From a virus, in the IMG/VR virus record IMGVR_UViG_3300021406_000015, positions 1-53,213 of that record: a DNA stretch of 53,213 bases; one strand, 5' to 3'. This document shows, piece by piece, positions 12,772-16,305 of the stretch. Position numbers and translations under genes: made by a program. Position 1 is the stretch's first letter; each line of letters starts with the position of its first letter. Under the pieces are notes generated by a model. The model saw nothing but the letters and a program-made list of their open reading frames with translations, made no database searches and was not told the origin of the DNA.

Positions 12772-13563
12772 TCATGCACCAACCAATTCTTCGCTCTTAC
12801 TTTTGCGATAGTCTCTCATCGCCTTAGCCCTTGCGTCTTTGCAAACATCGCATCGACAACCGTGATACGAATATGCAGACGATGTTCCGTGTGTGACCAT
12901 TCCGCGCGGTAATAAGTTCGGCGTGGTCAAGGTGTCTTCCAATGTCCATCCATTCTGTATTCGCACAAGAATAGTAGACTTATGAAGCCCTAGTTTTCTT
13001 GCCCATTCGACAACCGGGAGAGTTACATCACCAAACGTCAAATTGATCGTAGAAGACCTATTCTGCGCCTGTTCTCGTTTCGTAGACCACTTACAATTCT
13101 CAGGAGAATACCCTTTTGAGCCATCAACACGATCAATCGTGTGTTGAGGAGTAGGCTTCCGCCCCATGTCACTCAGAAACGTTTCATAGGAATGGAGCCA
13201 TTTATCGCAGACTGTTATACCAACCGCTCCATATCGCAAGTAGCTGGCACTTTGCGGTTTGAGGCATCTTTCTTTCATTGAAATCCAACTCCTATATTCC
13301 GAGGTTGGATGTTTGGACTCTCCGTGAACCAACGGAAAACATTCACTATTGCCCGGTTGTTCGCGCCTCAAACAACCACACGATTTGGAATGGCCTCTTC
13401 GCAGCATCTTAGGTGTTTCAAATTTCCGATTGCCGCAATCACAAAGACATTCAACCACTCCCTGATTGCGTCCTCCGAGCTTCATCATCTGAAGCTCGGA
13501 GATAACAGTCCATTTTCCGAATCGCTCACCCAGCGACACTGTATGCAGTCTTAGTGGATGCAT
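12772..13563 (-). CDS. HNH homing-type endonuclease with C-terminal HGT-CRC finger
   Basis: The 263-residue protein has an N-terminal zinc part (CLCDCGNRKFETP with SCGC), the core SEYRSWISMKERCLKPQ, YLRYGAVGITVCDKWLHSY, FLSDMGRKP and KGYSPENCKWSTKREQAQNR, then a helix-turn-helix-like segment. Its last 40 residues carry THGTSSAYSYHGCRCDVCKD, a zinc-finger-like unit also found in tandem in the stand-alone protein at 26273-26515. The first 12 codons overlap the 3' end of the Ro60 gene. Likely a mobile endonuclease that inserted behind Ro60. Confidence 0.85.
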   Translation of the reverse strand: MHPLRLHTVSLGERFGKWTVISELQMMKLGGRNQGVVECLCDCGNRKFETPKMLRRGHSKSCGCLRREQPGNSECFPLVHGESKHPTSEYRSWISMKERCLKPQSASYLRYGAVGITVCDKWLHSYETFLSDMGRKPTPQHTIDRVDGSKGYSPENCKWSTKREQAQNRSSTINLTFGDVTLPVVEWARKLGLHKSTILVRIQNGWTLEDTLTTPNLLPRGMVTHGTSSAYSYHGCRCDVCKDARAKAMRDYRKSKSEELVGA

Positions 13564-15043
13564 TGGTCCCCTTTATGGACGTGAGTACATCGCTCAAGCT
13601 AAGAAGCGGTGTGCTCAATATTTCGTCACATAAAGAATACTGATTAGATCGCAATGTGGCAACTGTATTCGGCAGAGAATAGTAGTCCACCGCACCACGA
13701 CGCAGATCGAACGTGGTCATCTCGATTCCAGCCTGCTGCATCCGTGCCGACAGGTAGTCCGGGTCTCCCGCCAACTGGTAGAAGTACACCGGGACGTCCT
13801 TGTCGATCATCTTCGCGTACTTCTTATATACGTCTGCAAAGTACGGTGCGTGGCCCTCGCCGCCGTCCGAGATGATGGCGATGCCATCGACCTCAGTCTT
13901 CTCGACAAGGAGCCGGTTCAAACCGCAGCCAATGGACGTTCCACCACCAGCGCTGATGTGCTGCGTCGCCTTCTTGATCTGATCGAGCGACGAGCCGGTC
14001 ACTTCCACCGACATCGGAGCCGTATCGAAGAACACCAGCCAGACCTTACCCTTCACGTACTGGGCAAGAGTTGCGGAGACGTGCCGCGAGATCTCGATAG
14101 CGTCACGCATGCTACCGCTCTTGTCGGCCAAGACCAGCCAGTTGCCGTCCGGTCCGCCTGCCGCCGCGATCTGCTTCGCCTGTACTGCGCGGAGCTTGTC
14201 CTTCAAGCCTTCGTCATCGACAGCATCGATAGCCGCAGTCGTCTTCAGCGTGGTCTGCTTGGACGTGGCCACCTTCTTCAGTCCTTCCTCGAAGGCCGCG
14301 CGCAGCGCCGGGTTGGTCTTCATACCCAGCTTCTCTAACATCTTCACGTTGGTCTGCAACTCGGTCGCCGACATGCGCGCCATCAGTGCCAGCACGAGAT
14401 CGGTGTCCTTTGCCTTGGCACCCAGAGCGCCCATGGCGATCAGAAACGGGATCTTGTATTTCGAGATCGCGCCCGCCGCCTCAACCGGTGCCATGTCCTT
14501 CAGGTGAGCAACCACCTCAAAGACACTGCCCTTCGGCAACGGAGCCTTGGTCTTGTCGAAATTGCGACCGTACAGCACGACGTTGGTACGCTCCTTCTCC
14601 GGCTTCGCGTGCGCAAGGGCATAAAGCTCTTTCAGTGTGCTACGGTGCTGTACTGCGAGATGGTCCCAGCCGCGATCCTGCTCCTTCTGGTGAAGATATC
14701 CCTCCACCAACCGGCGAAGCTGCCGCATCTTACCCGGCAACCGCAGTTCCAGAGCAAACCTGTAGGCACGCGCCAACTCGCGCGGTCCCAAGAGAGCAAT
14801 ATGCGCCAGCGAGTTGTCCGCCAGTTCGGCGTCCTTCTCGTAGGCAAGGCCGATGACCGGCAGCGCTACCTTGCTGTCGCGAACCTGGCCATGAGTGCGA
14901 TCCCACGCAATCAGGTGCTGGAAGAACTCGCCTTCCTGTAGGACGGCCTTGAGGCCGATGTCGAGGTACTCCTTGAGAGCACCGTGAGATGACTTGGAAA
15001 GTTCAGCGACGATACGCTGACGTGTTACGCCCTGCTCTGCCAT
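13526..15043 (-). CDS. Ro60-like RNA-binding protein (TROVE and vWA domains)
   Basis: The 505-residue protein starts at the ATG at 15043, spaced properly from GGGAGG. Residues 15-270 form a TROVE/HEAT-like domain (SHGALKEYLDIGLKAVLQEG, then AYRFALELRLPGKMRQL and KTKAPLPKGS). The C-terminal 190 residues are a von Willebrand A domain with a complete MIDAS: DKSGSM, GGGTSIG and ISDGGE. Ro60 proteins are ring-shaped RNA chaperones that bind Y RNAs and the ends of misfolded RNAs; bacterial homologues work with PNPase and tRNA-like Y RNAs. Here six tRNA-like RNAs lie about 500 nt upstream on the same strand, which suggests partners. Confidence 0.92.
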   Translation of the reverse strand: MAEQGVTRQRIVAELSKSSHGALKEYLDIGLKAVLQEGEFFQHLIAWDRTHGQVRDSKVALPVIGLAYEKDAELADNSLAHIALLGPRELARAYRFALELRLPGKMRQLRRLVEGYLHQKEQDRGWDHLAVQHRSTLKELYALAHAKPEKERTNVVLYGRNFDKTKAPLPKGSVFEVVAHLKDMAPVEAAGAISKYKIPFLIAMGALGAKAKDTDLVLALMARMSATELQTNVKMLEKLGMKTNPALRAAFEEGLKKVATSKQTTLKTTAAIDAVDDEGLKDKLRAVQAKQIAAAGGPDGNWLVLADKSGSMRDAIEISRHVSATLAQYVKGKVWLVFFDTAPMSVEVTGSSLDQIKKATQHISAGGGTSIGCGLNRLLVEKTEVDGIAIISDGGEGHAPYFADVYKKYAKMIDKDVPVYFYQLAGDPDYLSARMQQAGIEMTTFDLRRGAVDYYSLPNTVATLRSNQYSLCDEILSTPLLSLSDVLTSIKGTNASTKTAYSVAG

Positions 15044-15069
15044 GGTGTTCATCCTCCCGTGATGAAAAG

Positions 15070-15510
15070 TTAGGCCGCTTTACTTTTATGCCGTCTTAGG
15101 TACTCAATGGCGCACAACAAATTTTCTTCATCGTCCATAAATAACCCTAGAGCGCAATTACAACGCTGGCATAGAAAACCTCTAAATTTTCCGGTTTCGT
15201 GATCGTGGTCCCACTGAAATCCTTTTGAAGTTGGACCACATCCACAAATCTCGCATACCTGAACCGACTTCTTTGCCTCGCGCCTTTTCTTAGATTCAGA
15301 CGTGGCCCAATATGGCGACTCACCATCCTTGGATTTACGAATTCGACTACCGGTACGCTTCTGCCCCTTAAACCTATTTTCGGCAAGAGAACAAGCAAAG
15401 CGCATCCCTCGGTTTTTCTTCTTGACGCGCACTAGACCACAATGGGCACATTCACCCATCATTGCGTTTTCGTCCACGTTGATTATTTTGTGAATTCGTT
15501 GACCACGCAA
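15070..15510 (-). CDS. endonuclease VII family nuclease
   Basis: The 146-residue protein ends in the endonuclease VII core: CEICGCGPTSKGFQWDHDHE, then GKFRGFLCQRCNCALGLF and DDEENLLCAIEYLRRH. An N-terminal CAHCGLVRVKKKNRG finger precedes it. Full-size endonuclease VII resolves branched phage DNA, but small copies like this are common as mobile nucleases. It lies between Ro60 and the first tRNA-like element, 26 nt upstream of the Ro60 start. Confidence 0.85.
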   Translation of the reverse strand: MRGQRIHKIINVDENAMMGECAHCGLVRVKKKNRGMRFACSLAENRFKGQKRTGSRIRKSKDGESPYWATSESKKRREAKKSVQVCEICGCGPTSKGFQWDHDHETGKFRGFLCQRCNCALGLFMDDEENLLCAIEYLRRHKSKAA

Positions 15511-15528
15511 GGCGTCTTCCTTTTGTTG

Positions 15529-15640
15529 ACGGGGAACCCCGGTTTTGAGCCGAGATTACCGAGCCGAAGCCCGATTAAGCATGTATCCAACGACAGTGAG
15601 CATTTCTGCTAAGTCGTTTGGAACCTCTTAGGTTCCCCGT
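15529..15640 (-). ncRNA. tRNA-like element 1 (GG-N-TACATG family)
   Basis: A perfect 10-bp end stem ACGGGGAACC/GGTTCCCCGT encloses, in order: an inner stem CCAAACGAC/GTCGTTGG whose loop contains the hairpin AGCA-GAAA-TGCT, the motif GGATACATG, a hairpin ATCGGGC-TTCG-GCTCGGT, and a T-arm CTCGG-CTCAAAA-CCGGG. There is no anticodon arm and no CCA. It is the element nearest to Ro60, so a Y-RNA-like role is possible. Confidence 0.6.
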
Positions 15641-15648
15641 AACTTTAT

Positions 15649-15899: not shown

Positions 15900-15907
15900 T
15901 CATCTTA

Positions 15908-16028
15908 TGGTGGAGGGCCTGCGATTCGAACGCAGTAGAGTTACAACCAAATGTTACTCTTTGCCATGTAGCCAAGAAAAGTGTCCGTCGAAACGGAAAG
16001 TCGATCTCGGTTTGTTTTTTAGCCCCCC
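15908..16028 (-). ncRNA. tRNA-like element 4 with CCA end
   Basis: Acceptor GGGGGGC/GCCCTCC with encoded CCA and T-arm CTGCG-TTCGAAT-CGCAG. Between them lie the stem CCGAG/CTTGG with a loop holding CCGT-TTCG-ACGG, the motif GGCTACATG and a long hairpin AGAGT...ACTCT. A normal D-arm and anticodon arm are not recognisable. Confidence 0.58.
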
Positions 16029-16038
16029 ACAACTTAAT

Positions 16039-16174
16039 GGGTTGAAGTCTCTCAGGTAGCATCCCTTTCGGGAATGCCTGATTTGAAGTCAGGTGCCTAA
16101 CCATTCGGCTAATTCACCTCACGGTGAATCTTGGATTCGAACCAAGATAACATGTAACCTGAAACGTACAACCC
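16039..16174 (-). tRNA. tRNA-like element 5, permuted opal-type tRNA (TCA)
   Basis: The minus-strand order is GGGTTG, TTTCAGGTTACATG, T-arm CTTGG-TTCGAAT-CCAAG, acceptor 3' strand ATTCACC, linker GTGA, acceptor 5' strand GGTGAAT, D-arm GCC-GAATGGTTA-GGC, anticodon arm CCTGA-CTTCAAA-TCAGG, hairpin ATTCCC-GAAA-GGGAT, ACCTGA, CAACCC. All stems of a tRNA are present, but T-arm and acceptor 3' strand precede the 5' half. The anticodon TCA would read UGA. The ends pair (GGGTTG/CAACCC, CAGGT/ACCTG). Confidence 0.7.
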
Positions 16175-16181
16175 AAACTTA

Positions 16182-16305
16182 TTGCGTCAAGACGTTGAGC
16201 GATTCCCTTTCGGGAACGGAATCGGAATTGAACCGACTACCCTCAGATTACAAGTCTGATGCTCTACCAAATGAGCTATCCATGTACGCTCAACAATAGA
16301 CGCAA
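16182..16305 (-). tRNA. tRNA-like element 6, tRNA-Thr(TGT) body in an extended stem
   Basis: The body is a textbook Thr tRNA: D-arm GCTC-ATTTGGTA-GAGC, anticodon arm TCAGA-CTTGTAA-TCTGA, T-arm GTCGG-TTCAATT-CCGAT. The acceptor is abnormal: GTACATGGA faces TCCG, then a hairpin TTCCC-GAAA-GGGAA, and outside these lie GTTGAGCG/CGCTCAAC and TTGCGTC/GACGCAA. No CCA is encoded. Confidence 0.65.

Follow-up and report, generated by a model that had tools for sequence, protein, structure and literature searches.

An array of six tRNA-like RNAs upstream of a phage Ro60 homologue is very probably a set of Y RNAs

In the stretch of viral DNA analysed here (IMG/VR record IMGVR_UViG_3300021406_000015, positions 1 to 53,213, the whole 53,213 nucleotides being referred to below as the window), a gene for a Ro60 homologue is preceded on the same strand by a head-to-tail array of six tRNA-like RNAs (Table 1). 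These six RNAs are very probably a set of Y RNAs, i.e. RNAs in which a stem that Ro60 would bind is combined with a tRNA-like part. An earlier note, made from the sequence of the window, had described six tRNA-like RNAs followed by one nuclease gene and then by Ro60, and had proposed them as possible partners of Ro60, of the Y RNA (YrlA) kind; the layout is as described, with exactly six RNAs, and sequence, structure and conservation all lend strong support to the putative partnership. The same layout is kept in many related phages and hints at a phage device that handles tRNA or passes itself off as tRNA.

The six RNAs as probable Y RNAs

All six units contain a Y stem, in which an internal loop separates an outer from an inner helix, with the motif UACAUG directly after the inner strand. 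The tRNA-like part joined to the Y stem contains elements of the T arm, the D arm and the acceptor and, in many cases, of an anticodon arm (the arms were assigned partly by eye). Relatives of the Ro60 protein were found on 18 viral contigs, some of them near-identical copies, and on one contig of an Acidobacteriaceae metagenome-assembled genome, the only one detected among contigs of bacterial genomes; the relatives that need to be told apart are denoted below by L numbers. The 3' side of the internal loop reads GACUU or a close variant in the window units and CGACUA or GACAC in the relatives, and UACAUG is invariant in nearly all of the aligned units.

Two covariance models, R1 and R2, were built from units of the relatives aligned by type, with the window excluded. 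These blind models recover unit 5 (R1, 90.4 bits, E 7e-23) and unit 1 (R2, 118.8 bits, E 3e-34); the ordinary tRNAs of the window score at most ~38 bits with either model. The alignments of the classes to which units 5 and 1 belong include base changes on both sides of 14 of 29 and 21 of 29 pairs, respectively; none of the 500 shuffles reached the observed covariation score in either alignment, and sliding the pairing partner by a single column abolishes the signal in both. Changes on both sides are also found in the classes of unit 3 (15 of 24 pairs, 6 phages), unit 4 (16 of 34 pairs, 6 phages) and unit 6 (9 of 27 pairs, 4 phages). Furthermore, when the 5' strand of each of the 49 units with open Y ends was matched against all 3' strands, its own 3' strand was the best or tied-best partner in 41. 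The argument relies on covariation and on the blind models because both automatic finders of Y stems had a high background (99th percentile of 34 for the first one, against typical unit scores of 24–37, and 30 for a motif-restricted one). The count of UACAUG motifs is given less weight than the blind-model, covariation and partner tests since the motif was discovered in the same data.

The Rfam model of YrlA (RF02553) matches unit 5 over model positions 1–114 (32.9 bits, E 4e-5, at permissive thresholds). Unit 5 also displays the YrlA arrangement, with the Y stem enclosing the T arm, the acceptor hairpin and the D arm in this order, which is not the case for units 1, 3, 4 and 6.

Several observations weigh against this identification. 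The YrlA score of unit 5 is far under the curated Rfam cut-off of 69, so this unit is classified as YrlA-like and not as a member of RF02553; the score of the RNA from the Vibrio phage BONAISHI, which encodes a TROVE-matching protein, is below the cut-off as well (59.3 bits). The cloverleaf drawn for unit 2 is not the minimum-free-energy fold (−48.5 compared with −54.5 kcal/mol, i.e. 6 kcal/mol above it). The Pfam TROVE profile (PF05731) matches none of the eight Ro60 homologues searched at E up to 1, and the identity of the protein thus rests on the fold of a model with a mean predicted local distance difference test (pLDDT) score of 70.6 and a predicted template modelling (pTM) score of 0.47. 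None of the tests made here accounts for there being six RNAs of differing shapes. Finally, the evidence is computational throughout, with expression, binding by Ro60, processing and the decoy or tether role all being inferred.

Table 1. Features of the Ro60–Y RNA locus in the window (all on the minus strand; Y RNA identities are predicted).
Feature	Positions	Strand	Remarks and evidence
Ro60 homologue, TROVE-like helical repeats and vWA domain with MIDAS residues	13526-15052	-	508 aa
Endonuclease VII-like gene, between RNA array and Ro60	15070-15510	-	Pfam Endonuclease_7, 4e-17; PHROG
Array of six TACATG-bearing tRNA-like RNAs, head to tail	16305-15529	-	
Y RNA unit 1, Y stem at acceptor end	16182-16305	-	Blind model R2, fold, class covariation
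Y RNA unit 2	16038-16175	-	Y stem and TACATG; cloverleaf by inspection
Y RNA unit 3, open acceptor GGGGGGC/GCCCUCC, ACCA end	15908-16028	-	Fold, class 3 alignment
Y RNA unit 4, internal GCAA-capped Y stem	15779-15901	-	Fold, class 4 alignment
Y RNA unit 5, YrlA type	15648-15772	-	Rfam YrlA, blind model R1, class covariation
Y RNA unit 6, long closed stem ACGGGGAACC/GGUUCCCCGU, internal Y hairpin	15529-15640	-	Fold, class alignment
Probable promoter (sigma70 type) for the RNA array, TTGCGC - 17 nt - TAGAGT	16354-16382	-	Upstream alignment, read by eye

Placement of the Y stem and circular permutation

As read from the folds and alignments, the Y stem is attached to the cloverleaf at three different points: in unit 1 and class 2, at the acceptor end; in units 4 and 5 and, with an unclear D arm, probably also in units 3 and 6, between the D arm and the anticodon-like arm; and in unit 2 and L019, between the variable arm and the T arm. 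The ends of the RNA lie at the Y stem, in the YrlA style, in units 1, 2 and 5, and at the acceptor in units 3, 4 and 6, where the Y stem is capped by a small loop.

Unit 1 runs from the Y stem through the D arm, an anticodon arm (UGU, with U33 retained), the T arm and a GAAA hairpin back to the Y stem, and is the only unit of the array that is called by ARAGORN, as tRNA-Thr(TGT). Unit 2, with a partial Rfam tRNA match (28.4 bits, permissive thresholds), has the order Y stem, T arm, acceptor hairpin with a GUGA loop, D arm, anticodon arm (UCA), variable-arm-like hairpin and Y stem, which recurs in a distantly related 595-kb phage (see below) and, by inspection, in L019. The Y stem of unit 3, which also contains a T arm, is an internal hairpin capped by UUCG. 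In unit 4, the 5' acceptor strand is followed by the D arm, the Y stem, UACAUG, an anticodon-like arm (CAU, with U33 replaced), the T arm and the 3' acceptor strand, whereas in unit 5, UACAUG comes after the first Y strand and is followed by a small hairpin, the T arm, the acceptor hairpin, the D arm and the second Y strand. Thus, units 4 and 5 share an identical circular order of arms that is cut at different points, and therefore are circular permutants of one another; tandem duplication with a shifted boundary would explain such forms. Unit 6 carries, at the position of the T arm, an arm with an anticodon-like loop (CUCAAAA).

The anticodon-like loop of class 4 reads CAU with U33 replaced (by G, G, A, C and C) in five of the six sequences; CAU loops recur in other acceptor-open units too, possibly in mimicry of tRNA-Met. 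In several relatives of the classes of units 5 and 6, the loop that joins the two acceptor strands starts with a discriminator base and CCA (for class 5, L007, L008, L011, L013, L014 and, with C as its discriminator, L015), which could point to processing into two-piece RNAs, as in permuted transfer-messenger RNA (tmRNA), or to mere tRNA ancestry.

The Ro60 homologue

By its predicted fold, ORF (open reading frame) 13526-15052 is a Ro60 homologue, as the earlier note had proposed. Sequence searches provide limited guidance: Pfam yields a weak match in the vWA half only, a sequence search of the PDB with the ORF retrieved no relative, and PHROG_850 (‘RNA-binding protein') matches at 7e-11. The question was resolved by fold comparison. 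An AlphaFold model built from eight phage homologues consists of a ring of helical repeats and a vWA domain, the overall Ro60 fold. The best 13 Foldseek matches of this model in the PDB are all Ro60/TROVE proteins (E 3e-9 to 2e-5), among them 2nvo (Rsr from Deinococcus) and 9l5y (Ro60 from Thermus phage phiLo), and VIA-align gives Z scores of 15.6 to 2nvo (418 residues) and 15.7 to 1yvp (392 residues). Membership in the Ro60/TROVE family is accordingly assigned from the fold and PHROG_850, with the TROVE profile treated as a detection aid rather than a structural definition of the family. Residues D310, S312, S314, T372 and D396 are invariant across the eight homologues and, in our own reading of the sequences, are the metal ion-dependent adhesion site (MIDAS) of the vWA domain (DxSxS, T, D). 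Comparison with the relatives suggests 15043 as an alternative start of the ORF. PADLOC returned no convincing defence-system match for this protein.

Conservation of the locus

The array is present in every relative examined, and its linkage with Ro60 is kept in ~15 divergent phages and in LR756511, the 595-kb phage. The arrays of the relatives comprise ~4–8 units upstream of Ro60, with fewer recognized in L019 and L020; some sequence may be missing from the contigs. When additional arrays were sought by pattern scans, known contigs or nothing came up. A sequence of the form TTGNNN-17 nt-(T/C)ANNNT, as read by eye, precedes the first unit at the equivalent site in nine phages of the family, for example, TTGACA-17-TAAGGT in L005 and TTGACG-17-TAAGGT in L008.

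The Ro60 of LR756511.1 is 29% identical to that of the window and adjoins a parallel array in which UACAUG is replaced by UACAAAC, with ACUUGGAC on the 3' side of the stem. The folds of these units, with arms assigned partly by eye, repeat architectures of the window, namely, a tRNA within a Y stem, an open acceptor with an internal Y arm, and the succession of Y stem, T arm, acceptor, D arm, anticodon arm and variable arm. No relatives of the LR756511.1 Ro60 were detected in IMG/VR. Just before the probable start codon of this gene, there is a lone hairpin that resembles the outer Y stem (5925-5965 of LR756511.1, denoted L012; ACUUGGAUGCGGAAGCGUCCCCAAC), which could mediate autoregulation through the binding of Ro60 to its own mRNA.

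In most of the relatives, the slot that is occupied in the window by the endonuclease VII-like gene contains a different conserved gene that encodes an HNH protein of ~185 aa (MASGDRFYQL...; L003:5418-5978, L007:5421-5975 and equivalents). In 13 relatives, it separates the array from Ro60, and in L020, it precedes the last unit; it could represent a functional partner or a gene of the homing type.

Possible functions and alternative explanations

The locus is best viewed as a putative phage Ro60–Y RNA module. A single transcript, probably driven by its own promoter, would yield six Y RNAs, each with a Ro60-binding stem (two helices separated by an internal loop, then UACAUG) and a tRNA-like effector part. 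Ro60 would bind the Y stems, and the tRNA-like parts, with their varied arrangements and anticodon-like loops, would be recognized by enzymes that act on tRNA. In the mechanism favoured here, the resulting ribonucleoproteins would, as tRNA look-alikes, occupy host enzymes that cleave or process tRNA and/or act as a tether between Ro60 and an RNase; RNA of the phage and of the host would thereby be protected or selectively degraded during infection. The decoy element of this scheme, taken alone, is advanced tentatively, as something short of an even chance. The more specific proposal, that five-armed ‘tRNA-Y RNA' chimeras, in the form of circular permutants some of which end in CCA, make up a panel of phage tRNA decoys against host defences that cleave tRNA, is a conjecture with perhaps a one-in-three claim on belief. 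For Salmonella, the Wolin laboratory has suggested that the tRNA-like domain of YrlA may competitively inhibit an anticodon nuclease (PMC7790460).

It is also conceivable, with some doubt, that the RNAs are ordinary tethers of the YrlA type that scaffold Ro60 to the host PNPase or another RNase for the degradation of structured RNA, with the tRNA shapes serving for RNase docking and the number of RNAs being incidental. An Rsr-Y RNA-PNPase machine is established in Deinococcus (PMC7790460 and PMC12282133), and unit 5 is YrlA-like; but a single YrlA would suffice for tethering, which leaves unexplained that the diversity of arms, ends and anticodon loops is conserved in the arrays, each of ~4–8 units. 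A panel of differently shaped tRNA mimics would fit a decoy role well, and a Deinococcus-like RNase tether almost as well.

A translational role is improbable. Under this explanation, the acceptor-open units with CCA (unit 3 and the relatives of unit 4) would be working five-armed tRNAs that are charged and translate, with the Y arm providing for control by Ro60. The paired 7-bp acceptor, the T arm and the ACCA encoded in unit 3 and in many relatives speak in its favour. Against it stand the class-4 loops, in which CAU comes with G, A or C in place of U33 in five of the six, the lack of a canonical T loop in unit 6, and the Y stem itself, which, positioned between the D and anticodon arms, should distort the tRNA body.

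Still less probable is that the units are permuted tRNA genes, with products that are turned into working tRNAs by splicing or ligation while Ro60 assists in folding. The T arm, acceptor and D arm do come in permuted order, some of the anticodon arms are intact (UGU, UCA), and an RNA ligase of the PF09414 family is encoded in two of the seven records tested, which may be incomplete. However, unit 1 would duplicate the tRNA-Thr(UGU) that the phage encodes at 17865-17939, the ends of unit 3, with ACCA, are already those of a normal tRNA, the acceptor of unit 4 is paired and open, and the mini units of some relatives include no tRNA part. The earlier note had raised the possibility that Ro60 chaperones the folding or ligation of permuted tRNAs and had pointed to the ligase RtcB as a gene to look for elsewhere in the genome. 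RtcB was not found in any of nine records (the window, six relative contigs of 71–136 kb, the 595-kb phage and BONAISHI), with the control genomes positive, and inspection of the folds, without a motif search, revealed no bulge-helix-bulge but rather the asymmetric internal loop of the Y stem (~3–4 by 5). The rearranged arm order needs no ligation because the Y stem fills the strand break, as it does in YrlA; with RtcB not found in these possibly incomplete records and the permutation following from the Y stem, the chaperone proposal is unsupported. A separate observation, restricted to one relative, is the PF09414 ligase of L003 (~10347-10847, minus strand, E 9e-24), which is located a few kb downstream of Ro60.

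That these are decaying tRNA genes of a tRNA island in which Ro60 happens to reside can practically be dismissed: the window is rich in tRNAs (32 ARAGORN calls), but such decay is contradicted by the covariation of the helices, the nearly invariant UACAUG and the linkage of the array with Ro60 across the divergent phages.

Known systems and phage Ro60 at large

The window array shares with the YrlA RNAs (RF02553) the nearby Ro60 gene, the Y stem formed by the RNA ends and, in unit 5, the order of T arm, acceptor hairpin and D arm; it differs in that the match is below the cut-off, there are six RNAs instead of one or two, and the other units bear additional anticodon or variable arms, have the Y stem inserted elsewhere, or have open acceptors, one of these with CCA. 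Similarly, the Deinococcus Rsr-Y RNA-PNPase machine resembles the window locus in the Ro60 fold and the neighbouring Y RNA but not in the number of RNAs and their tRNA-like parts. The Salmonella rsr-yrlBA-rtcBA RNA repair operon likewise combines Ro60 with YrlA-type RNAs (PMC7790460), whereas RtcB was not found in the nine records examined here. Permuted tmRNA and tRNA genes have in common with the array an acceptor 3' strand that precedes the 5' strand and, in a number of relatives from classes 5 and 6, an ACCA retained within the loop of the acceptor; the difference is that inspection disclosed no splicing motif and the break is bridged by the Y stem. In the Listeria phage CKA15 (PMC12282133), the 2 kb upstream of the Rsr homologue contain three regions of high transcription on the strand of that gene, and Y RNAs have been proposed as the products; the likeness to the window lies in these several abundant transcripts upstream of Rsr, and such strong transcription just upstream of an Rsr gene makes expression of the window array plausible.

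Phage Ro60 proteins are common, and arrays of distinct tRNA-like Y RNAs offer a concrete, testable handle on their role. The BONAISHI Ro60 matches 340 annotated phage records, mostly of Mycobacterium and Streptomyces phages. A small sample of seven annotated loci (BONAISHI and six others) was examined. YrlA-type matches, one or two RNAs each, were detected near Ro60 in BONAISHI, Streptomyces phage Sham, Mycobacterium phage Sparky and Gordonia phage GMA2, and the Pumpernickel locus has a match to model R1. The seven loci showed no clear tRNA-in-Y match of the strength found here, nor were the non-YrlA forms of the window evident in them, with the limit that R1 and R2 would miss some forms. Vibrio phage pir03 reportedly encodes a Ro60; none was found there with PHROG_850 or TROVE.

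The variety of Y-stem attachment points and RNA ends looks new. Within one tandem array, a structured RNA is met in nature in circularly permuted forms. The arrays also call for caution in annotation, given that tRNA finders label some of these RNAs, such as unit 1, as ordinary tRNAs.

The surrounding tRNA-rich region

Among the tRNAs of the window are two with the CUA anticodon, i.e. of the amber suppressor type (9967-10042 and 21147-21220), and tRNAs with UCA or UUA anticodons are found in relatives. Reassignment of a stop codon was considered and rejected, as read-through of TAG raises the ORF coverage no more than read-through of TGA or TAA. Two tRNA-like sequences that are not called by ARAGORN were seen by eye at 10943-11040 and 11095-11180 (minus strand); one of the pair has a long variable arm and one reads like a tRNA-Met (CAU). 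The tRNA region also includes, at 19420-20253 on the minus strand, a gene for a conserved protein (PHROG_7371, 2e-36) that resembles a second vWA-type protein (FIQDRSGSM).

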